From: Antricoccus suffuscus | GTDB taxonomy: Bacteria > Actinomycetota > Actinomycetes > Mycobacteriales > Antricoccaceae | Direction of reading: 5' to 3' | Assembly: GCF_003003235.1 (NCBI RefSeq) | Contig: NZ_PVUE01000008.1 | Span: 62,001-126,000, forward strand | DNA length: 64,000 bases | Shown here: positions 18,605 to 48,365 of the stretch, in pieces | How the letters are laid out: every line of letters begins with the position of its first letter | How positions within the stretch are numbered: position 1 is the first letter of the stretch | The notes under the pieces: generated by a model | What the model was told of the DNA's origin: nothing | Database searches by the model: none | Seen by the model: the letters and a program-made list of their open reading frames with translations, nothing else | Position numbers and translations under genes: made by a program

Positions 18605-20071
18605 ATGTCTCATGCCCCTGGTCGCGGCCTGCTGGTCGCCGGTACGTCGTCGGACGCCGGAAAGTCCCTCGTCACGACGGGTATCTGTCGATTCCTCGCC
18701 CGCCAGGGACTCGCGGTCGCGCCTTTCAAAGCGCAGAATATGTCTAACAACTCGATGGTCTGCGCCGATGGAGCGGAAATCGGCCGCGCCCAATATCTCC
18801 AGGCCCAGGCCGCCCGCGCCGTACCAACCTCCGCAATGAACCCCGTGCTCCTCAAGCCCGGCTCGGACCGTCGGTCGTTCGTCGTGGTGCGTGGTAAGGC
18901 CGACGGCGTACTGGAAGCAGGGGAGTTCGCGAGTGGGCGCGGGCACCTGGCCGCGGCCGCGTTCACGGCGTACCGCGAACTCCAGGAGCAGTACGACGTA
19001 ATCGTGTGTGAGGGTGCCGGTTCGCCGGCCGAAATCAACTTACGGTCCGGTGATTACGTCAACATGGGGCTCGCGCGCGAGTTCGACCTGCCGGTGGTTG
19101 TTGTGGGGGACATCGACCGAGGCGGGGTGTTCGCATCTCTGTATGGAACCGTCGAACTGCTCGAGCCAGCAGACCGCGCACTAGTGAAAGCGTTCATCAT
19201 CAACAAGTTCCGCGGTGACGAATCGTTGCTGCGTCCCGGTCTTGAGCGGTTGTCCGAGCTCACCGGGCGGCCGTTCCTCGGGGTGATCCCGTGGATGCGC
19301 GACATGTGGCTGGACAGCGAAGACACGCTCGAGGTGGGCCGGTGGACCGACGCCGACGGCGGGACCCTACGCGTCGCGGTCGTCCGCTTGCCGCGCATTT
19401 CCAACGCGACCGACGTCGACGCTCTCGCCGCCGAGCCGGGAGTGGCTGTCGCCGTGACCATCGATCCGGCAGCGATCCGGTCGGCGGATCTCGTCGTACT
19501 CCCCGGTTCGCGTGCAACTGTGAGCGATCTGCATTGGCTGCAGGACAGCGGAATCGCCGATGCACTTCGCCAACGGGCCAATCAGGAGCTACCTATTCTT
19601 GGCATCTGCGGTGGTTACCAGATGCTCGCGCGGACACTCGACGACTCGGTCGAGTCCGGTGCCGGCGTGGTCGAGGGGCTGGGTCTGCTGCCGACCGCGG
19701 TGCGCTTCGAAGACGAGAAGACGCTTGGCCGTCCGCAAGGCAGCTGGCGCAGTCACGTCGTTGAGGCATACGAGATTCACCACGGCATTACGAGGACGAT
19801 CGGTGATGGCGGCTCCGCGATCGCTTTTCTAGACGGTATCCAGCTCGGTACGACGTGGGGTACGACGTGGCACGGCACCCTAGAGAACGACGCCTTCCGG
19901 CGCGCCTGGCTGGTCGAGGTAGCCGCGATGGCCGGATCAGAGTGGGAGCCAGCGAGGGACGCACCAGGGTTTGGTGAACGGCGCGAGCGGATGATCGATG
20001 CGCTGGCCGATGCGATTGAGGAAAACCTCGATACGGAGGCGTTGTTGGACATGGTCGGCGTACGACGATGA
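18605..20071 (+). CDS. cobQ: cobyric acid synthase CobQ
   Basis: 488 residues. The N-terminal ATP-binding region reads LLVAGTSSDAGKSLVTTGIC, followed by FKAQNMSNNSMV, a CobQ hallmark. The C-terminal class I glutamine amidotransferase domain has the cysteine in LGICGGYQML and a histidine in YEIHHG. It amidates the b, d, e and g carboxylates of adenosylcobyrinic acid a,c-diamide with glutamine and ATP. The ATG at 18605 follows GGTGGAG. The stop overlaps the cbiD start by 4 bp (ATGA), so the two are translationally coupled. Confidence 0.95.
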   Translation: MSHAPGRGLLVAGTSSDAGKSLVTTGICRFLARQGLAVAPFKAQNMSNNSMVCADGAEIGRAQYLQAQAARAVPTSAMNPVLLKPGSDRRSFVVVRGKADGVLEAGEFASGRGHLAAAAFTAYRELQEQYDVIVCEGAGSPAEINLRSGDYVNMGLAREFDLPVVVVGDIDRGGVFASLYGTVELLEPADRALVKAFIINKFRGDESLLRPGLERLSELTGRPFLGVIPWMRDMWLDSEDTLEVGRWTDADGGTLRVAVVRLPRISNATDVDALAAEPGVAVAVTIDPAAIRSADLVVLPGSRATVSDLHWLQDSGIADALRQRANQELPILGICGGYQMLARTLDDSVESGAGVVEGLGLLPTAVRFEDEKTLGRPQGSWRSHVVEAYEIHHGITRTIGDGGSAIAFLDGIQLGTTWGTTWHGTLENDAFRRAWLVEVAAMAGSEWEPARDAPGFGERRERMIDALADAIEENLDTEALLDMVGVRR

Positions 20072-21150
20072 CGCAGCGCGAGCAGCAGCCCGACGGCAAG
20101 ATGCGTTACGGCTGGACAACCGGGGCATGCGCGACCGCCGCGACAACGGCGGCGTACACGGCCCTTTTGTCGGGGGAGTTTCCAGATCCGGTCATGATCA
20201 CGCTGCCGCGCGGCCAGACGCCGTCATTTGCGCTGACGAAACATGAGCGGGTTGACGAGCAGACGGCCCGCGCGACGATTACGAAGGATGCCGGTGACGA
20301 TCCTGACGTCACGCATGGCGCGCTGGTTACCTCGACGGTGACGCTCATTGGCGGCGACGCAGTCGTTTTTGCGGCCGGTGAGGGTGTCGGCATCGTGACA
20401 AAACCAGGTCTGCCTGTCGCGGTGGGGGAGCCGGCGATCAACCCGGTCCCGCGGAAGATGATGTGTGACCATGTAGCCGAGATTGCCCGCCGTCTAGGAC
20501 ATCCGGGCGGCGTACGCGTCGAGGTCAGCATCGAACACGGTGCGGATCTCGCGCAGCACACCTGGAATCCGAGGCTCGGGATCGTCGGCGGCCTGTCCGT
20601 CCTTGGTACGACGGGGATCGTGGTGCCCTATTCGTGCTCGGCGTGGATCGACTCGATTCGTCGTGGCGTGGATGTCGCGCGCGCTACCGGAGTCACCCAC
20701 GTCGGGGCGGCGACCGGTACGACGTCCGAAGCGACCGTGCGGGCGCTCTACGGGTTGGATGAGGGCGCAATGCTCGACATGGGCGACTTCGCCGGTGCGG
20801 TCCTGAAGTACGTCAAGGGTCATCCCGTGCCACGTCTCACGGTTGCCGGCGGCTTCGCGAAGATGTCGAAACTCGCCGCTGGTCATTTGGACCTGCACTC
20901 TGGACGATCGTCAATCAACCTCGACTTCGTCGCCACCTTCGTCGAGGACGAGGCGCTCGCTGTGCAGATCGCGGCGGCCAACTCCGCACTGCATGCGTGG
21001 GAGATCGCCCGAGATCACGGTGTGCCGCTGGCCGATCGGGTGGCCGCCGCCGCGCTCGAAAAATGCCGGAGTGTCCTGGGCAACGTGCAGGTCGAGGTCG
21101 ACATTGTGGTGATCAACCGGGCCGGCGACATCATTGGTCGTGCGAAGTAA
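20068..21150 (+). CDS. cbiD: cobalt-precorrin-5B C1-methyltransferase-type protein CbiD
   Basis: 360 residues, full family length. It opens MRYGWTTGACATAATTAAY, the CbiD signature, and continues with VTKPGLPVAVGEPAINPVPR and a GTTGIVVPYSCSAWIDSIRR segment. CbiD methylates C1 with S-adenosylmethionine in the anaerobic pathway. Here it is coupled to cobQ in a genome that also has CobG and CobN, which belong to the aerobic route, and no CobF lies in the window. I infer that CbiD takes over C1 methylation (and possibly the deacylation step) in a hybrid pathway. Confidence 0.94.
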   Translation: MTQREQQPDGKMRYGWTTGACATAATTAAYTALLSGEFPDPVMITLPRGQTPSFALTKHERVDEQTARATITKDAGDDPDVTHGALVTSTVTLIGGDAVVFAAGEGVGIVTKPGLPVAVGEPAINPVPRKMMCDHVAEIARRLGHPGGVRVEVSIEHGADLAQHTWNPRLGIVGGLSVLGTTGIVVPYSCSAWIDSIRRGVDVARATGVTHVGAATGTTSEATVRALYGLDEGAMLDMGDFAGAVLKYVKGHPVPRLTVAGGFAKMSKLAAGHLDLHSGRSSINLDFVATFVEDEALAVQIAAANSALHAWEIARDHGVPLADRVAAAALEKCRSVLGNVQVEVDIVVINRAGDIIGRAK

Positions 21151-24824: not shown

Positions 24825-25004
24825 CGCTGACTTTCATGAACTGAAGATAGCGCTGACAGTCACACTGCAGCCTGGCCGAGGCCTTGCTCGCCGCATGCGG
24901 CGCAGGAGCGTCGGCGAGACCATGCCCGTGGCGGTCTCGACCGGTGGCAGCGATGCGTGATCCTTGCCCCGCTCTCGACCGGTTTGCCGTTTGATTGCTA
25001 GTGT

Positions 25005-25115
25005 CGTCGTATCGCGTATTGGTGTGAGGAAGCTGGTGTGATTCCAGCACGGTAGCGCCACTGTGAGCCTTGTCGCACCTGCGGCGGGCAAGTCAGACAC
25101 TTTGCCATCACGCGG
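25005..25115 (+). ncRNA. cobalamin riboswitch upstream of cbtB
   Basis: The leader contains GAGGAAGCTGGTGTGATTCC, then AGCACGGTAGCGCCACTGTGA with the B12 box GCCACTG at 25057-25063, and AAGTCAGAC at 25090-25098, in the order and spacing of adenosylcobalamin-type riboswitches. The cbtB start lies about 45 bp downstream. Binding of cobalamin should reduce expression of the cobalt uptake genes. Exact ends are estimates. Confidence 0.92.
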
Positions 25116-25160
25116 CCACATTTCAACGAGGGACGCATCATCCCCGAAGGAGGCATTCTC

Positions 25161-25376
25161 ATGGCCAACATTTCGGCTCCGATCGTCGGCGCCACCCCAA
25201 TCGTCATCCCGATATCCCACGCGGTGCGCTGGATCATCGGCACCTTGATCGCGGCGTTCGCGGTTTACTACTTCGTCGGAGTCGACCAGGGTGCGACGTC
25301 AGTTTTCGGCGCCGACACTCACATCCACGAGTTCGTCCACGACGCGCGCCACTTCCTCGGCTTTCCTTGCCACTGA
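25161..25376 (+). CDS. cbtB: CbtB-domain cobalt transporter subunit
   Basis: 71 residues with one transmembrane helix (ISHAVRWIIGTLIAAFAVYYFVG split across the start of the helix) and a C-terminal His-rich segment TH-IHEFVHDARHFLGFPCH. CbtB proteins are small single-helix partners of CbtA; the histidines are the probable cobalt-binding part. The ATG follows GGAGG at a good distance, and the gene lies directly under a cobalamin riboswitch and 25 bp before cbtA. Confidence 0.93.
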   Translation: MANISAPIVGATPIVIPISHAVRWIIGTLIAAFAVYYFVGVDQGATSVFGADTHIHEFVHDARHFLGFPCH

Positions 25377-25401
25377 TTTTGCCGGTTAAGGACAACTTTA
25401 T

Positions 25402-26253
25402 ATGGATAAGTTCATTCTTCGTGGCGTGCTCAGTGGCGCGCTCGGCGGGCTAATTGCTTTTGTTTTCGCCCGTATCTTTGCCGAACCGCAGATCCAGGCA
25501 GCGATCGACTACGAAGAAGGTCGCGGCGCCGCCCAAGAAAAGCTCGACAAGGCGGCCGGCATAGCCGTCAGTGGCCATGAGCACGAGATCTTCAGCCGTA
25601 CAATTCAGGCTAGTCTCGGCATCGGCGTCGGCATGATTCTGCTGGGCGCCGCACTCGGCGCAATTTTCGCTGTCGTGTTCGCCGTATGCCTCGGCCGGGT
25701 CGGCAAGCTGAAGGCCCGCTCGCTGGCACTTCTCCTTGCTGGTGGCGGGTTGGTCGGCTTCTACCTGGTGCCGTTCGTCAAGTACCCCGCCAATCCGCCG
25801 GCGGTCGGCAACGCAGACACGATAGGCGCGCGGACCGGGCTCTATCTGGCCATGGTCGTGTGCTCACTGCTGTTCCTGGTGCTGGCGGTGTTCCTTGGGC
25901 GCAAACTCCAGGCGCGCCTTGGCGCCTGGAGCGCCAGCCTGGTCTCCGGTGCTGCCTTTATCGTCGCTGTCGGCATCGTGATGCTGATCCTGCCTTCACT
26001 TGGCGAGCTGCCTGCCAACGTGGCCGCGTTCGGACATCACGCAACGGAGACTCCGCTGCCGCTGACCGATCCGGATGGCGCGATCGTCTACCCGGGATTC
26101 CCAGCAGATGTACTGGCAGACTTCCGGCTCTATTCGGTCGGCGCGCAAGTGATCATCTGGGGCACGATCGGCCTGGTATTTGCGCCGCTCGCCGACCGGT
26201 TGCTGACTCGACTCGGTACAACCGCCGCGACCAAGGCGACGGCCAACGCCTGA
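25402..26253 (+). CDS. cbtA: CbtA-type cobalt transporter
   Basis: 283 residues with about six hydrophobic segments. It begins FILRGVLSGALGGLIAFVFA and has a His/Glu-containing loop (AVSGHEHEIFSRTIQASLG), then VPFVKYPANPPAVGNADTI, all characteristic of CbtA, the predicted integral membrane component of a B12-regulated cobalt uptake system. It sits in the riboswitch-controlled operon cbtB-cbtA, with an FhuF-like gene 25 bp downstream. Confidence 0.93.
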   Translation: MDKFILRGVLSGALGGLIAFVFARIFAEPQIQAAIDYEEGRGAAQEKLDKAAGIAVSGHEHEIFSRTIQASLGIGVGMILLGAALGAIFAVVFAVCLGRVGKLKARSLALLLAGGGLVGFYLVPFVKYPANPPAVGNADTIGARTGLYLAMVVCSLLFLVLAVFLGRKLQARLGAWSASLVSGAAFIVAVGIVMLILPSLGELPANVAAFGHHATETPLPLTDPDGAIVYPGFPADVLADFRLYSVGAQVIIWGTIGLVFAPLADRLLTRLGTTAATKATANA

Positions 26254-26278
26254 GCGGGAGACACTTGGTGTCGCTACA

Positions 26279-26989
26279 GTGACGGACGGCCTGCAAACTC
26301 TTGAAGCCTGCGGGCCGTTCTTCGCCGTCGAGAGGCATAAGCCGGGCGCCTCCCCGGTAGCGCCGTGGCGACCCATTCGCGACCTTGTCGACGGTGACGA
26401 CGCACTTGGTGACCGTATTGCCGCCGTACGAAGCGTGCTCGCCACCTCCGCGCGGATTTCGGCAGAATCTGTCGAGCTTCGCGTCGCCGGGTCGGTGATG
26501 CAGCTCGGCGTGGTCGCCCGCCTGCTCTCACCCGTTCTCGGCTTTGCCGCGGCAGTGGGGCGCCAGCTTGTTTTCGACGTGGACAGCTGGTGGTGGCAGC
26601 CCGAACCTGGTGGCGCTTTCCCGCTGTCCTTGCCGAGCACGGCGTTCGTCGCGGGCCCCACGGACGCAGGCGGTGGGGTTCGGGCGCTCGATGAAGTGAT
26701 CGCGGCGATCGTCGCCGAGACAAGAGCCGCCTGCGGTGTCTCCCAGGCTCTGTTATGGGGCAACGTCGCCTCCGCTATCAACGGGGCAGCGAGGATGGTT
26801 GCTTCCACGCGTCCAGATCTGTCCGATGCTGTTTACGCGCAGGCAGCGTCTGTCGCGCAACGCTTACGGCTCCACAGGTCGTCGACCGGGCCGTTCGGTC
26901 CTGAGTTCCGGCGACGCAGCTGCTGTCTGATCTACCGAACGGCTTCGTCTACGCCGCAGGCGATCTGCGGTGACTGTGTTTTTACCTAG
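26279..26989 (+). CDS. FhuF-like [2Fe-2S] reductase
   Basis: 236 residues. The C-terminus holds four cysteines: Cys215-Cys216 in RRRSCCLIYR and Cys230/Cys233 in ICGDCVF, the CC-x13-CxxC arrangement that coordinates a [2Fe-2S] cluster in FhuF ferric-siderophore reductases. The N-terminal part is the poorly conserved FhuF-like helical domain. It begins with a GTG 25 bp after cbtA and ends directly against the convergent cobN stop. Location in a B12-riboswitch operon suggests a role in metal or corrinoid reduction rather than siderophore use; this is inference. Confidence 0.85.
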   Translation: MTDGLQTLEACGPFFAVERHKPGASPVAPWRPIRDLVDGDDALGDRIAAVRSVLATSARISAESVELRVAGSVMQLGVVARLLSPVLGFAAAVGRQLVFDVDSWWWQPEPGGAFPLSLPSTAFVAGPTDAGGGVRALDEVIAAIVAETRAACGVSQALLWGNVASAINGAARMVASTRPDLSDAVYAQAASVAQRLRLHRSSTGPFGPEFRRRSCCLIYRTASSTPQAICGDCVFT

Positions 26990-29900
26990 CTACTCGTCAT
27001 CCTCCAGGTCGCCTTCGACGTCGAGGTATAGCTGAGCGAGTTGAGACATGAGCTCTGGATCTGGTTGCTCCCAGAGCCCCCGGTCACTCGCCTCGGTGAG
27101 GCGCTCAATGATGCCGCGTAACGCCCACGGATTCGCGTGCCGCAGAAAGTCTTGATTGACCTTGTCCAGCGCGTATGTCTGCGCCAGTTGCTCGTACATC
27201 CAGTCCGTGACGACGCCAGCCGTCGCGTCGTACCCGAAGAGATAGTCGACGGTCGCGGCCAGCTCGAAGGCGCCCTTGTAGCCGTGCCGGCGCATCGCGG
27301 AGATCCAGCGCGGGTTGACGACCCTCGCCCGGAAGACGCGTGCCGTCTCCTCGGTCAGAGACCGCGTGCGGACAGCATCGGACACCGTCGAGTCGCCGAC
27401 GTACGCCGCCGGCGCGGTGCCGGTCAGCGCACGCACGGTCGCGACCATGCCGCCGTGGTACTGGAAGTAGTCATCGCTGTCAGCGATGTCATGCTCGCGG
27501 GTGTCGGTGTTCTTAGCCGCGACCGCGATCCGCCGGTAGTTGGCTTCCATATCGTCACGTGCGGGGACGCCGTCCATGTCGCGGCCATACGCGAATCCGC
27601 CCCAGACCGAGTAGACCTCGGCGAGATCCTTGTCGTCACGCCAGTTGCCGGACTCGATCAGCGGCAGGATGCCCGCGCCGTACGACCCGGGCTTGGACCC
27701 GAAGATGCGCGTGGTCGCCCGACGCTGGTCGCCGTGCTGGCTCAAGTCGGCCGCCGTATGAGCCTTGACGAAGTTCAGCTCATCAGGCTCGTCGAGGTCA
27801 GCGACCAGCCGGACCGCATCGTCGAGCATCGTGATCACATGCGGGAACGCGTCACGGAAGAAGCCCGAGATCCGCACCGTGACATCGATCCGGGGCCGAT
27901 CGAGCTCCTCGAGCGGTACGACGCGCAGACCGGTGACCCGACGTGATGCCTCGTCCCACTCAGGAATGACGCCCATGAGAGCGAGCACCTCGGCGATGTC
28001 GTCGCCCGACGTACGCATCGCTGACGTGCCCCAGACGGAGAGCCCGACGTTTCGGGGATAGTCGCCGTTGTCGGTCTTGTAGCGCTCAACAAGCGATTCG
28101 GCCATGGCGGCCCCGGTGTCGTAGGCAAGGCGAGACGGGATCGCCTTGGGATCGACGGAGTAGAAGTTGCGCCCGGTGGGCAGCACGTTGACCAGGCCGC
28201 GCAGCGGCGACCCCGAGGGGCCGGCCGGAATGTATCCGCCGTCAAGGGCGTGGAGTATCGCCGGGATCTCGCCGCGGGTTGCATCGAGCCGCGGGATGAC
28301 CTCGGTGGCAGCGAAGTGCAACGACGTACTCACGTCGGGATTGGCCTCCCCGAGTACGTCGAGGACGATCTCGTCGACCCGCTCGTGCGCCCAGCCCGCG
28401 GCATCAAGGGCGGTCACGAGCGCCTTGGCCTTCTCCTCGGCGGCGTCGACATCGGCGAGCTCACTGTCGTTTTCCTTCAGCCCCAGGGCAACTCGCAGTC
28501 CGGGGACGGCTTGGACTGTCCCACCCCACACCTGGTTGGCGCGAAGAATCGCCAGCACGAGGTTGATCCGGCCCTCAGCGGCCGGCGCTTCGCCGAGGAT
28601 GTGCAGCCCGTCGCGGATCTGTACGTCCTTGATCTCGCAGAGCCAACCGTCGACGTGCATGACGAACTGGTCGAACTCCTCGTCGTCCGGGCGCTCGGAA
28701 AGCCCGAGATCGTGGTCCATCTTCGCGGACTGGATGAGCGTCCAGATCTCCGCTCGCATTGCCGGCGCCTTGGCGGGGTCCATCGCCGAGACGTTGCCGT
28801 ACTCGTCGAGAAGCTGCTCCAGGCGGGCGATGTCGCCGTACGACTCGGCGCGCGCCATGGGCGGGATGAGGTGGTCGACGATCGTCGCGTGGGCGCGTCG
28901 CTTTGCCTGAGTGCCTTCGCCGGGATCATTGATGAGGAACGGATAGATCAGCGGCATATTGCCGATTGCAGCGTCGGCAGCACATTCCGCCGACATGCCG
29001 ACGTTCTTGCCGGGTAGCCATTCCATGTTGCCGTGTTTGCCCATGTGTACGACGGCGTGGGCGCCGAACGACTTCTCCAGCCAGCGGTATACAGCCAGGT
29101 AATGGTGCGACGGAGGCAGATCCGGATCATGGTAGATCGCGATCGGGTTCTCGCCGAACCCGCGTGGCGGCTGGACGATCACCAGGACGTTGCCCGCTTG
29201 CAGGGTGGCAACGACGATCTCGCCGTCGGGATCGCGCGAGGTATCGACGAACAACTCCCCGGGGGCTTCGCCCCATTTCTCGACCACGCTGTCGACCAGC
29301 TGCTTCGGCAGCTCAGCGAGCCAAGCACGATAGTCGGCGGCCCTGATCCGCACTGGCTGCCCGGACAGCTGCTCGTTGGTGAGCCATTCTTCGTCTTGCC
29401 CGCCGGCTTCGATGAGCGCGTGGATGAGCGCATTTCCGGCAGTCGTATCGGGCGACTCGTCCTCAATAGGCTCAAGGGGAGCGAGCCCGGGGAGCGCGTC
29501 TTTGGTGCCGACCGGGCCGACGTCGTAGCCCGCCTCATGCATCGCGCGCAGGAGCCGGACGACGGAGACTGGCGTGTCGAGCCCGACCGCGTTACCGATA
29601 CGGGAGTGTTTGGTCGGATAGGCAGACAGCACGACCGCGATCTTGCGATCGGCGGGCGGGATGTGCCGCAACCTTGCATGCGCGACCGCGATCCCGGCGA
29701 CTCGAGCGCACCGCTCAGCATCCGGAACGTAGTGCGGCAGTCCGTCCGCGTCGGTCTCCTTGAACGAGAAGGGCACGGTGATCAGGCGGCCGTCAAACTC
29801 GGGTACGGCGATTTGGGTTGCGACGTCGAGCGGTGACAGTCCCTCGTCGGAGGTAGCCCAGGTCTCGCGGTCCCAGGTGAGGCACAGCCCTTGCAGCATA

Positions 29901-30649
29901 GGGATATCGAGCGCCGCCAAGGCCCGCACATCCCAGGCCTCGTCATCCTGACCGGCGCCCGCCGTACCGGGCTTTGTACCGCCCGCGGCGAGGACCGTAG
30001 TGACGAGCGCATCGAGAGTTCCCAGATGAGTCAGGAGATCGTGCGGTGCATCACGCAGGGATGCGCAGAAGATCGGGATACCAACCCCGCCAGCGTCATC
30101 GATAGCGTCGGCAAGCCCATGGACGTAGTCGGTGTTGGCGGCGGTGTACTGCGCTCGGTAGAAGAGAATTCCAACGCGTGGCCGGACCGCCCCGTCCGTG
30201 GCCGGGCCGGCCGGTGCCGGGCGATCGAGCTCGCCCCAGTTGGGCATCCGCAGGGCCGGCTCGAATCCTTCACCCGTGAGCAGGATCGTGTCGCAGAGAA
30301 ACGCGTGCAGCTGCCGGAGGTTGTCGGCACCGCCCTCCGCGAGGTAGACGTGTGCGTCGGCTGCGACTCCCATCGGCACGGACGAGATCTCCATCAAGGA
30401 CGCGTTGGGTGTCTGTTCGCCACCGAGTACGACGAGCGGCTTGCCGGTCTGGCGCATCCTGTCGAACTCCTCGCGCAATGACTCGGGCGAGCCGAGGATG
30501 CGCGCAACGATCAGGTCGGCACCGTCACAGAGCGAGCCCATCTCGTCCAGCGTGATCTTGGTTGGATTGGCATAGACGTAGTCGGCCTGGCTGGCCCGGG
30601 CCGAGAGTAGGTCGGTGTCTGAGGTCGATACCAGCGCGATGCGGGGCAT
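26990..30649 (-). CDS. cobN: cobaltochelatase large subunit CobN
   Basis: 1219 residues, the full size of CobN. Recognisable stretches include VHMGKHGNMEWLPGKNVGMS, the strong CobN/ChlH/BchH-family segment, NLVLAILRANQVWGGTVQ and GRNFYSVDPKAIPSRLAYDTG. CobN binds hydrogenobyrinic acid a,c-diamide and inserts Co2+ together with AAA+ and VWA partner subunits; the ChlI-ChlD-type protein at 45625 is the probable partner here. The ATG at 30649 has AAGGAG upstream. A cobalamin riboswitch lies in its leader. It is divergent from cobG and convergent with the FhuF-like gene. Confidence 0.96.
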   Translation of the reverse strand: MPRIALVSTSDTDLLSARASQADYVYANPTKITLDEMGSLCDGADLIVARILGSPESLREEFDRMRQTGKPLVVLGGEQTPNASLMEISSVPMGVAADAHVYLAEGGADNLRQLHAFLCDTILLTGEGFEPALRMPNWGELDRPAPAGPATDGAVRPRVGILFYRAQYTAANTDYVHGLADAIDDAGGVGIPIFCASLRDAPHDLLTHLGTLDALVTTVLAAGGTKPGTAGAGQDDEAWDVRALAALDIPMLQGLCLTWDRETWATSDEGLSPLDVATQIAVPEFDGRLITVPFSFKETDADGLPHYVPDAERCARVAGIAVAHARLRHIPPADRKIAVVLSAYPTKHSRIGNAVGLDTPVSVVRLLRAMHEAGYDVGPVGTKDALPGLAPLEPIEDESPDTTAGNALIHALIEAGGQDEEWLTNEQLSGQPVRIRAADYRAWLAELPKQLVDSVVEKWGEAPGELFVDTSRDPDGEIVVATLQAGNVLVIVQPPRGFGENPIAIYHDPDLPPSHHYLAVYRWLEKSFGAHAVVHMGKHGNMEWLPGKNVGMSAECAADAAIGNMPLIYPFLINDPGEGTQAKRRAHATIVDHLIPPMARAESYGDIARLEQLLDEYGNVSAMDPAKAPAMRAEIWTLIQSAKMDHDLGLSERPDDEEFDQFVMHVDGWLCEIKDVQIRDGLHILGEAPAAEGRINLVLAILRANQVWGGTVQAVPGLRVALGLKENDSELADVDAAEEKAKALVTALDAAGWAHERVDEIVLDVLGEANPDVSTSLHFAATEVIPRLDATRGEIPAILHALDGGYIPAGPSGSPLRGLVNVLPTGRNFYSVDPKAIPSRLAYDTGAAMAESLVERYKTDNGDYPRNVGLSVWGTSAMRTSGDDIAEVLALMGVIPEWDEASRRVTGLRVVPLEELDRPRIDVTVRISGFFRDAFPHVITMLDDAVRLVADLDEPDELNFVKAHTAADLSQHGDQRRATTRIFGSKPGSYGAGILPLIESGNWRDDKDLAEVYSVWGGFAYGRDMDGVPARDDMEANYRRIAVAAKNTDTREHDIADSDDYFQYHGGMVATVRALTGTAPAAYVGDSTVSDAVRTRSLTEETARVFRARVVNPRWISAMRRHGYKGAFELAATVDYLFGYDATAGVVTDWMYEQLAQTYALDKVNQDFLRHANPWALRGIIERLTEASDRGLWEQPDPELMSQLAQLYLDVEGDLEDDE

Positions 30650-30694
30650 GAGACGAGCTCCTTATCGAGGTCCGCGCCTCGAGTCGTAGATGCC

Positions 30695-30800
30695 ATCGCG
30701 GTTAGTTCCTGACTTGCGCGGCAGCTGGTGCGTGCCGCGTTCACAGTGGCGGGACCGTCCCGGAGTTGCACCGGGTTCCTATTCCATCGATGGGTTGCCG
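30695..30800 (-). ncRNA. cobalamin riboswitch upstream of cobN
   Basis: Read on the minus strand: GGAACCCGGTGCAACTCC, then GGGACGGTCCCGCCACTGTGA with the B12 box (complement of 30744-30750), then AAGTCAGGAAC. Order and spacing match the cobalamin riboswitch core. The cobN start is about 45 bp downstream. The element lies between the divergent cobN and cobG starts. Exact ends are estimates. Confidence 0.92.
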
Positions 30801-30839
30801 GCTCAGCCTATCGGGCGACAATCCCACTACGATGGGCCG

Positions 30840-45624: not shown

Positions 45625-47751
45625 GTGCGAACGTTTCCGTTTTCGGCCGTCGTCGGGTCCGACGACATGGCTCTCGCGCTCATCCTCACCGCCGTCTCGC
45701 CCGAGGTTGGCGGCGTTTTGGTGCGGGGTGAGAAGGGTACGGCAAAATCGACCATGGTCCGCGCCCTCGCCTCGGTTCTGCCCGAACAGACCGTCGTCAT
45801 GGGGTGCCGATTCGGTTGCGACCCCGATGACCCGGACCCCAGTTGCCCAGATGGCCCGCACGCCGGGGCCCGCGCGCACACCCGGTCTGCCCGGCTCGTG
45901 GAGCTACCGGTCGGTGCCACCGAGGATCGGGTGATCGGCTCGCTGGACCTGCAGCGTGCGCTCGGCGAAGGAGTCACGGCGTACGAGCCGGGACTGTTGG
46001 CGGCGGCACACCGCGGCCTGCTGTACGTCGACGAGGTCAACCTGTTGCACGACCATCTTGTGGACCTGTTGTTGGATGCGGCGGCCATGGGCCGTTCGAC
46101 CGTCGAACGTGAAGGGGTCTCGGTGTCGCACGGTGCGAAGTTTGTGCTCGTCGGGACGATGAACCCTGAAGAAGGCGAGCTGCGGCCGCAACTGCTTGAC
46201 CGGTTTGGCCTGACCGTAGAGATCAAGGCGCCGCGCGATCCGAAGCTGCGCACCGAGGTAGTACGGCGCCGGCTTGCCTTCGACGGCAACCCCAACTCGT
46301 TTGCCGCAAAATACGATGATCAGGAGGAGACGCTGCGTAAGCGCATCAGCGATGCGCAGCTGCGGTTGCCCACGGTCGAACTCGGCAACGAGGCGCTGGA
46401 AAAGATTGCCGAAGTGTGCGCGGCCTTCGACGTCGACGGGATGCGCGCGGACATCGTGACTGCACGTGCGGCGGTCGCGCACGCTGCGTGGAACGGCCGC
46501 ACGAGCGTCGACAAGGCGGACATCCGGGCCGCGGCCAGGCTCGCTCTGCCACACCGCCGCCGCCGCAATCCCTTTGACGCTCCGGGTCTGGACGAGGATC
46601 TGCTTGACCAGATCCTTGAAGACCAGCCCGAACCTGAGCCGCCAAATGATCCGGACGACCGTGGTTCCGACGACAGCTCTCCCGACGACCAGAGCCTCGA
46701 TGGTTCGCAGTCTCAGTCGCAGTCGCAACAGGATTCCGGCCAGCCAGACTCTGCTCCTCGCAACCAGTCGGCCCCGCAGCCGCGGGACCACGGACCGGCC
46801 GATACTCCGGCAGATGCGTCCGACGAGTCGCCGTCCGACGGACCCGCGCCAGGCCTGCACGTGGCCGGCGTACAGGAGCCTTACCGCACCAAGTTCTTCG
46901 CCGCGTCTGGAATTGGCGGCGGCGAAGCCGGTAGGCGGTCGCGGGCGATCACCTCGATCGGCCGGACGGTTGGCGCCGCACCGGGCGGCGAGACCAGCGG
47001 CGGTGTCCACCTTCCGGCGACGATCCGCGCCGCGGCGCCGCATCAGGTAGCGCGCGGGCGTACTGCGCGGTCGGGTTCGACGTCGCGCCGCGAGTACGAC
47101 GGCCCCGAGGCGCTGCGCATCCAGGCCTCCGACGTACGCCGGTCCATCACAGAAGGTCGCGAGTCGAATCTGGTGTTGTTCTGCGTAGACGCATCCGGAT
47201 CGATGGCCGCCCGCAAACGCATGGAGAGCGTGAAAACCGCCGTGCTGTCACTTCTACTTGATGCCTATCAGCGCCGCGACAAGGTCGGCCTGGTGACGTT
47301 CCGTGGTCGTGAGGCGGTGCTAGCACTACCGCCGACGTCGTCGGTGGATACCGCCGCGCGCCGGCTCGAAGAGTTGCCGACCGGTGGTCGCACACCACTG
47401 GCCGAGGGGCTGATGATGGCCGAACGCACGCTGCGCCTGGAGCGTTTGCGTGACCCGAAGCGACGCGCGCTGCTGATTGTGGTCACCGACGGGCGCGCTA
47501 CCGCTGGCGCCGATGCGCTCGCCTACTCACGCCGAGCAGCGGAATACCTCGCTGCCACTGGTGTCGACGCGATCGTGGTGGACTGCGAGACCGGCCGGTT
47601 CCGGATGGGTCTAGCCGGCTCGCTGGCGCAGTCACTGGACGCGCAGTACGTCGCCCTCGACGAGGTGGGCGCGTCACAGCTCGTCTCGGTCGCCGGCGGA
47701 AAGTCCTTGCACTCCGAGGACACGGGCCAGACTCCGGGACGGGCCGCCTGA
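45625..47751 (+). CDS. ChlI-ChlD-type AAA+/VWA chelatase subunit (probable CobN partner)
   Basis: 708 residues. The N-terminal AAA+ part starts FPFSAVVGSDDMALALIL with Walker A in VRGEKGTAKST and Walker B in GLLYVDEVNLL, and TMNPEEGELRPQLLDRFGL. A disordered linker (about 355-430) rich in Asp, Pro, Ser and Gln includes an SQSQSQSQQ run. The C-terminal VWA domain has the MIDAS motif VDASGSMAARK. In actinobacteria this gene precedes cobO and cobB, and it probably replaces CobS/CobT in the cobaltochelatase with CobN. GTG at 45625 fits the family start and a GGAG site; ATG at 45583 is an alternative. Confidence 0.9.
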   Translation: MRTFPFSAVVGSDDMALALILTAVSPEVGGVLVRGEKGTAKSTMVRALASVLPEQTVVMGCRFGCDPDDPDPSCPDGPHAGARAHTRSARLVELPVGATEDRVIGSLDLQRALGEGVTAYEPGLLAAAHRGLLYVDEVNLLHDHLVDLLLDAAAMGRSTVEREGVSVSHGAKFVLVGTMNPEEGELRPQLLDRFGLTVEIKAPRDPKLRTEVVRRRLAFDGNPNSFAAKYDDQEETLRKRISDAQLRLPTVELGNEALEKIAEVCAAFDVDGMRADIVTARAAVAHAAWNGRTSVDKADIRAAARLALPHRRRRNPFDAPGLDEDLLDQILEDQPEPEPPNDPDDRGSDDSSPDDQSLDGSQSQSQSQQDSGQPDSAPRNQSAPQPRDHGPADTPADASDESPSDGPAPGLHVAGVQEPYRTKFFAASGIGGGEAGRRSRAITSIGRTVGAAPGGETSGGVHLPATIRAAAPHQVARGRTARSGSTSRREYDGPEALRIQASDVRRSITEGRESNLVLFCVDASGSMAARKRMESVKTAVLSLLLDAYQRRDKVGLVTFRGREAVLALPPTSSVDTAARRLEELPTGGRTPLAEGLMMAERTLRLERLRDPKRRALLIVVTDGRATAGADALAYSRRAAEYLAATGVDAIVVDCETGRFRMGLAGSLAQSLDAQYVALDEVGASQLVSVAGGKSLHSEDTGQTPGRAA

Positions 47752-48365
47752 TGCCAAAGGGAGAGATCGCCGTCACGCCGAACGATGGACTGAGCACCCG
47801 GCAGCGGCGCAACAGACCGCTGATCATGGTGCACACTGGCGATGGCAAGGGTAAGTCGACGGCTGCATTCGGGATGGCGCTGCGCGCCTGGAACCAGGGC
47901 TGGTCGGTTGGCGTATTTCAGTTCGTGAAGTCTGCCAAGTGGCGGATCGGTGAGCAGACCGCGCTGGAGACTCTCGCTGAGCTACACGCGAAAGACGGCG
48001 TCGGCGGGCCGATCGAGTGGCACAAGATGGGATCGGGCTGGTCCTGGTCTCGCCGGCAAGGCAGTGCCGAGGACCACGCCGCCGAGGCCGCCGAGGGCTG
48101 GCAGGAGATCAAGCGCCGGCTCGCGGCCGACACGCATCGTCTCTACGTGCTCGACGAGTTCACATATCCCATCAACTGGGGCTGGGTAGATATCGATGAC
48201 GTCGTACAGACGCTTCGTGATCGCCCCGGCAACCAGCACGTGGTGATCACCGGGCGTCGGGCGGACCCCAAACTGCTCGAGGTCGCCAATCTCGTGACCG
48301 AGATGACGAAGGTGAAACACCCGATGGATGAGGGACAGAAGGGCCAGCGCGGCATCGAATGGTGA
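47751..48365 (+). CDS. cobO: cob(I)yrinic acid a,c-diamide adenosyltransferase CobO
   Basis: 204 residues. The P-loop is VHTGDGKGKSTAAFGMAL, followed by VGVFQFVKSAKWRIGE and YVLDEFTYPINWGWVDI, the CobA/CobO (BtuR) signatures. It transfers the adenosyl group from ATP to Co(I) of the corrin. The ATG overlaps the chelatase stop by one base, and the stop overlaps the cobB-cobC start by 7 bp, so the genes are tightly coupled. It requires prior reduction of Co(II), for which no dedicated CobR gene lies in this operon. Confidence 0.95.
   Translation: MPKGEIAVTPNDGLSTRQRRNRPLIMVHTGDGKGKSTAAFGMALRAWNQGWSVGVFQFVKSAKWRIGEQTALETLAELHAKDGVGGPIEWHKMGSGWSWSRRQGSAEDHAAEAAEGWQEIKRRLAADTHRLYVLDEFTYPINWGWVDIDDVVQTLRDRPGNQHVVITGRRADPKLLEVANLVTEMTKVKHPMDEGQKGQRGIEW

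Follow-up and report, generated by a model that had tools for sequence, protein, structure and literature searches.

A FhuF-like protein of Antricoccus suffuscus, encoded with cobalt transporter genes behind a cobalamin (B12) riboswitch, probably has a previously unrecognized role, that of reducing cobalt, likely inside B12 precursors. Judging from sequence, predicted fold and gene context, we propose that a FhuF-fold [2Fe-2S] reductase was recruited into B12 metabolism, with corrinoid cobalt as its likely substrate, and we give this reading a probability of about 0.48. If true, the FhuF family would widen from iron to cobalt. In aerobic B12 producers, it is poorly settled where the electrons for corrinoid adenosylation come from, and CobR, which is known from Brucella (PMC7242693), may be non-specific. 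For streptomycetes, mycobacteria, and other groups, the riboswitch-controlled FhuF clade supplies a candidate that is small, named, and open to testing. In the open-access literature, to which our search was confined (subscription papers lay outside it), a link of FhuF to the B12 regulon or to cobalt was absent. A Frankia inventory found there counts both FhuF and CbtA and draws no link between them, and FhuF goes unmentioned in the main text of the 2013 riboswitch regulon paper and of the papers on mycobacterial B12 from 2021 and 2025.

The window, meaning the whole stretch of 64,000 nucleotides that was analyzed (G000:C8:62001-126000), comes from a genome totaling 4.68 Mb. The features of the operon and of its partners in the window are listed in Table 1. 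The leading riboswitch ends 38 bases ahead of cbtB, which has AAGGAGG as its ribosome site, and in most relatives cbtB is likewise preceded by a cobalamin riboswitch. The initial annotation had described a fhuF-like gene that follows cbtB and cbtA after 25 bp behind a B12 riboswitch, carries a CC-x13-CxxC motif, and abuts cobN. The coordinates and the RF00174 match agree with this description, the C-terminus reads RRRSCCLIYRTASSTPQAICGDCVFT, and the convergent pair of fhuF and cobN has contiguous stops, one ending at 26989 and the other starting at 26990, with zero gap. Co-transcription of the three genes is suggested by their spacing and strand, and, with the arrangement conserved in relatives, the fhuF of the window belongs to the B12 (cobalamin riboswitch) regulon. 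Riboswitch-controlled CbtAB cobalt transporter operons are a known arrangement, with cbtB and cbtA behind a cobalamin riboswitch; here, a redox protein is added as the third gene. CobO is the enzyme that would consume the reduced corrinoid. A CbiD-type methyltransferase gene (window 20068-21150) adjoins cobQ in a cluster that includes the aerobic CobG and cobaltochelatase; the CbiD type usually belongs to the anaerobic pathway.

Table 1. Features of the cbtB-cbtA-fhuF operon and related B12 genes in the window
Feature	Position	Strand	Evidence
Cobalamin (B12) riboswitch aptamer, leads cbtB-cbtA-fhuF	24979..25122	+	Rfam RF00174, 34.4 bits, cutoff 31.5
cbtB, proposed cobalt transporter subunit, 71 aa	25161..25376	+	Pfam CbtB PF09489, 33 bits, cutoff 27
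cbtA, proposed cobalt transporter subunit, 283 aa	25402..26253	+	Pfam CbtA PF09490, 258.6 bits
fhuF-like gene, putative [2Fe-2S]-type reductase, 236 aa, GTG start	26279..26989	+	FhuF_C 20.7 bits, FhuF fold
Codons of vicinal C215-C216, putative cluster ligands	26921..26926	+	Invariant in 33 relatives
Codons of C230-G-D-C233, putative cluster ligands	26966..26977	+	C230, D232, C233 invariant in 33 relatives
cobN, cobaltochelatase subunit, convergent with fhuF	26990..30649	-	TIGR02257, 1105 bits
Cobalamin riboswitch ahead of cobN	30683..30835	-	RF00174, 52 bits
cobO, corrinoid adenosyltransferase	47751..48365	+	PF02572, 205.5 bits over window 47814-48362 (G000:C8:109814-110362)

The FhuF_C profile (PF11575) was barely above its cutoff (20.7 vs. 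20.5 bits), the Pfam FhuF domain PF06276 gave a partial match of 15.1 bits against a cutoff of 25.2, and the siderophore-reductase equivalog TIGR03951 was not reached (17.1 vs. 63.85 bits). A phmmer search of the protein against the PDB returned no match, so that its kinship with FhuF is visible only by fold comparison. No PF01613 flavin reductase match was found within the protein at E values up to 1. The AlphaFold model, computed from an alignment of 33 relatives, had a pLDDT of 89.6 and a pTM of 0.89. For both structural aligners, the top match was E. coli FhuF (7qp5; Z 15.7, rmsd 3.7, 219 residues, 14% identity), and the cysteine motif sits at the same place in the FhuF fold as in the E. 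coli protein. According to the model, then, the window protein has the FhuF fold. NIS siderophore synthetases (IucA, and the palm domain of AcsD) share a related palm-like fold at Z 9-13.5; unlike the FhuF-like protein, they are ATP enzymes without the cysteine motif. Unrelated structural matches all had Z under 7, far below 7qp5. PI3K and ATM kinases, which were among the matches with Z under 7, were rejected as structural kin and read as a common helical arrangement.

Ten columns were invariant among the 33 relatives: R68, N162, S165, R212, C215, C216, L217, C230, D232, and C233. The tree of relatives splits into two deep clades (100/100), one with C-x-D-C-[VAL] ends and one with C-x-x-C-P ends, and the window protein falls in the former. 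It shares with E. coli FhuF (PDB 7qp5; PMC8068687) the fold and a C-terminal CC-xn-CxxC. It differs in the spacing, which is CC-x13 here and CC-x10 in E. coli (PMC8068687), in its end, C-G-D-C-V/L instead of C-x-x-C-P, and in its control, a B12 riboswitch with cobalt genes here and siderophore control there. The CC-x13 spacing occurs in part of the cbt-linked group, and this departure from E. coli FhuF counts against the corrinoid reading. The fold and the CC/C-x-D-C motif agree with the earlier description of a FhuF-like [2Fe-2S]-type protein, the cluster itself being putative; we infer the [2Fe-2S] cluster, the electron flow, and the substrate.

We followed the linkage of fhuF and cbtA through an order sample of 200 genomes, probably Mycobacteriales (PPE-bearing mycobacteria included), with genes in relatives called by a simple codon-bias caller. 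A FhuF relative was present in 51/200 genomes and CbtA in 94/200. In 20 of the 94 CbtA genomes, spread over seven families, fhuF adjoins cbtA in one of three arrangements: cbtB-cbtA-fhuF with all three genes co-oriented, fhuF convergent with cbtBA, or fhuF preceding cbtBA. The existence of several arrangements means that rearrangements either left the association intact or were followed by its return. CbtA was more frequent in genomes with a FhuF relative (40/51 vs. 54/149, Fisher p 2e-7, phylogeny ignored), as was CobN (47/51 vs. 106/149, p 0.002, phylogeny ignored). A second set comprised 80 named GTDB loci, found by patterns inside fhuF only. Here cbtA was adjacent in 55/80 loci, nearly all of them actinobacterial, in a set that is skewed to close relatives of the cbt-linked seeds and gives no population estimate. 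In 44 of these 55 loci, cbtA precedes fhuF in the same orientation and a riboswitch was detected ahead of the pair, and the linked genera include Streptomyces, Kitasatospora, Kribbella, Gordonia, Amycolatopsis, Actinoplanes, and Catenulispora. The cbtBA-fhuF linkage that the initial annotation had proposed to look for across actinobacteria was thus recovered in both sets. In Gordonia polyisoprenivorans (L195 4704-7981), fhuF is flanked on both sides by a cbtBA pair, each pair having a riboswitch to itself.

The 46 order-sample loci that were examined divided into 16 cbt-linked loci, 10 riboswitch ABC operons, 3 solo riboswitch genes, and 17 others. About a third of the relatives (17/46 order-sample loci and 20/80 named loci) stand outside any detected B12 context, and this argues against the corrinoid reading. 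Rfam alone carries the main riboswitch cases; the RNA model R1 was built partly from the counted loci, and its matches there are not independent of Rfam. The loci sampled are essentially Actinomycetota, with one exception, a Melainabacteria MAG (L184) that may be misbinned, in which FhuF stands alongside a B12-independent ribonucleotide reductase. Relatives conserve each of the four features (motif, fold, riboswitch, and synteny), and the observation in the window is therefore more than chance.

B12 riboswitches accompany FhuF relatives in further contexts. In ten riboswitch-led ABC importer operons of the order sample, nearly all mycobacterial (L056, L057, L060, L065, L070, L073, L075, L077, L078, L080), the FhuF relative is the last or a late gene. 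The mycobacterial type runs from the riboswitch through a Peripla_BP_2 protein, a FecCD permease, and an ATPase to the FhuF relative, and BtuC models are among the best-scoring matches of the permeases. These operons strengthen the cobalt/B12 case beyond what the window alone shows. A btuFCD operon has been predicted in M. smegmatis (MSMEG_4560-4558; PMC8088520). In two mycobacteria (L059, L071) and three streptomycetes (L162, L163, L167), a solo fhuF lies 85-310 nt behind a riboswitch. Because fhuF also stands alone in this way, its B12 link is independent of the transporter. In Kitasatospora mediocidica (L162 5780-5944), the riboswitch and the solo fhuF are separated by a CbtA-like remnant of 55 aa, which suggests that cbtBA was lost and fhuF retained.

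The other FhuF clade shows the same coupling. CxxCP-type FhuFs end riboswitch-led BtuFCD-like operons in four loci of another family (L228-L231). A second FhuF in the window's genome, of the C-x-x-C-P type, ends a riboswitch-led NikABCDE-like operon (L083 8483-14440, G000:C16), and two genomes of another family (L232, L233) have the same layout, again with a CxxCP-type FhuF at its end. The L083 operon is probably a second B12-controlled cobalt or metallophore import system. As CxxCP-type FhuFs end riboswitch-led operons too, recruitment to the B12 regulon took place in both clades. Neither riboswitch nor cbtA was seen at the CxxCP-type loci L234-L247, which were chosen partly for having no riboswitch nearby among the matches listed and serve as illustration, not as an unbiased control. 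Operon, riboswitch, fold, cysteines, and the repeated coupling with cobalt and B12 import can all be read from the sequences. By gene context, FhuF-like proteins recur as members of the B12 regulon.

This diversity of contexts bears on what is reduced. In the main rival reading, which we consider possible but rather unlikely, the protein is a Co(III)-chelate reductase that applies FhuF-like chemistry to cobalt-siderophores or metallophores and supplies CobN, the cobaltochelatase, with the Co(II) thus freed. Hydroxamate complexes of Co(III) are stable, the Nik-like (NikABCDE/CntA-like) operons of the window's genome and of L232 and L233 suit a chelate substrate better than a corrinoid, and in three mycobacteria (L057, L060, L078) the ABC-fhuF operon is divergent from cobN, head to head with it. 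FhuF itself frees metal from hydroxamates by reduction (PMC8068687). On the other side, CbtAB is presumed to be a permease for ions and is not known to carry chelates, the solo riboswitch-fhuF genes fit a chelate less well, BtuC is among the proteins that the ABC permeases resemble, and genes for metallophore synthesis were not seen next to the examined loci. Only a corrinoid would suit all three settings as a substrate: the Co2+ permease, the B12 importer, and the gene that stands alone.

It is more doubtful still that the protein is an ordinary ferric-siderophore reductase in a shared operon, with iron as its substrate and B12 control incidental. The fold is that of FhuF, and FecCD and Peripla_BP_2 importers carry siderophores too. 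Against iron stand the missed TIGR03951, the B12 riboswitches immediately ahead of solo fhuF genes and in operons of several independent types, and the surroundings in the window, where fhuF has no siderophore genes beside it and is neighbored by genes for cobalt and cobalamin under a B12 riboswitch. Many actinobacterial entries annotated as "siderophore-iron reductase" probably carry the wrong name.

A few loci place fhuF near cofactor-bearing enzymes of the B12 economy, for which it could be an electron donor, either in MetH reactivation or, like the ferredoxin YfaE, for the NrdB ribonucleotide reductase. The Melainabacteria-labeled contig, which may be misbinned, has the order cobalamin riboswitch-nrdA-nrdB-fhuF (L184 1653-6316); metH lies two genes from fhuF in L053 (3411-8376) and L054, and a fused B12-dependent acyl-CoA mutase two genes from fhuF in L069 (7646-12361). 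Each of these contexts is known from one or two loci, B12 repression would turn the donor off just when the B12 enzymes are active, and the cobalt importers would be left unexplained, which makes this reading very improbable.

We then return to cobalt in corrinoids, for which the CobR step matters. CobR, the Brucella corrin reductase (PDB 4ira/3cb0; PMC7242693), does the job proposed here, bringing reduced corrinoid to CobO, but it is a flavoprotein of the flavin reductase fold, while the window protein has the FhuF fold and a cysteine motif. The initial annotation had seen no CobR-like flavin reductase gene in the window, and indeed the window's contig carries no PF01613 protein. The genome has three, all on other contigs, and for each the best PDB match is a flavin reductase other than CobR. 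CobR (3cb0/4ira) ranked 18th for the first (58.6 bits vs. 172.4 for the best match) and last for the second (20.4 bits), and was absent among the matches listed for the third. A clear cobR in the genome, together with homologs linked mainly to siderophore genes, had been named beforehand as the outcome that would speak against a cobalt role; CobR was never the best match, and the relatives are linked to cobalt and B12. The generic flavin reductases of the genome could still serve the CobR step, and non-specific flavin reduction may be a source of reduced corrinoid (PMC8123684). Most CobO genomes are without a FhuF of this kind, so the protein is no universal CobR substitute. From this distribution, it is dispensable to the B12 pathway and would be an auxiliary or lineage-specific solution.

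Under the corrinoid reading, scarcity of adenosylcobalamin would let the riboswitch permit joint expression of cbtB, cbtA, and fhuF. CbtAB would import cobalt, and FhuF would take electrons one at a time from a donor in the cell and pass them to cobalt. The likeliest acceptor would be the Co(III) of corrinoids (oxidized cobyrinate diamide, salvaged cobalamin, or cobinamide), and its reduction to Co(II) would keep the corrinoid pool usable for CobO. Inside a CobO complex, the electron may go further and yield Co(I). Cobalamin riboswitches typically shut genes off when B12 is plentiful, and the fhuF products should therefore serve acquisition or assembly, and less the upkeep of B12 enzymes. The potential of E. 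coli FhuF is -0.36 V at pH 7.4 (PMC8068687). By analogy, such a potential would easily be ample for Co(III) to Co(II). It would be weak for reducing Co(II) to Co(I) when the corrinoid is free, and Co(I) is reachable at this potential only with a four-coordinate corrinoid, as in adenosyltransferases.

Two further points weigh against corrinoids. A Co2+ importer delivers no Co(III), and the coupling with cbt genes shows cobalt metabolism, not the substrate. In addition, 74/94 CbtA genomes have no adjacent FhuF of this kind, and most CobO genomes have none at all. The initial suggestion of a candidate for corrinoid or cobalt reduction gained from the B12/cobalt regulon seen in several operon types and many actinobacterial families; its narrower part, Co(II) to Co(I) for CobO, is less well supported, the potential being weak for a free corrinoid and most CobO genomes lacking this FhuF. 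In its strongest form, the proposal would make FhuF-like [2Fe-2S] proteins the corrinoid reductase dedicated to aerobic B12 synthesis and salvage in actinobacteria, a second answer to the CobR step that does without flavin and, in complex with CobO, can take Co(II) to Co(I); this we regard as unlikely.

The window's genome encodes a third, very divergent FhuF_C-like protein (L084 7345-8055, G000:C2). Its gene lies between prmC-like and Sua5-like genes on the opposite strand, with no B12 context. In five mycobacterial loci (L059, L061, L067, L071, L076), fhuF is found between recA and a DUF3046 gene; in L059 and L071, this is the solo fhuF beside recA, with the riboswitch 85-90 nt upstream. M. 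tuberculosis has at the recA/DUF3046 place a short cysteine-rich fragment, Rv2737A, which we take to be perhaps a decayed fhuF.
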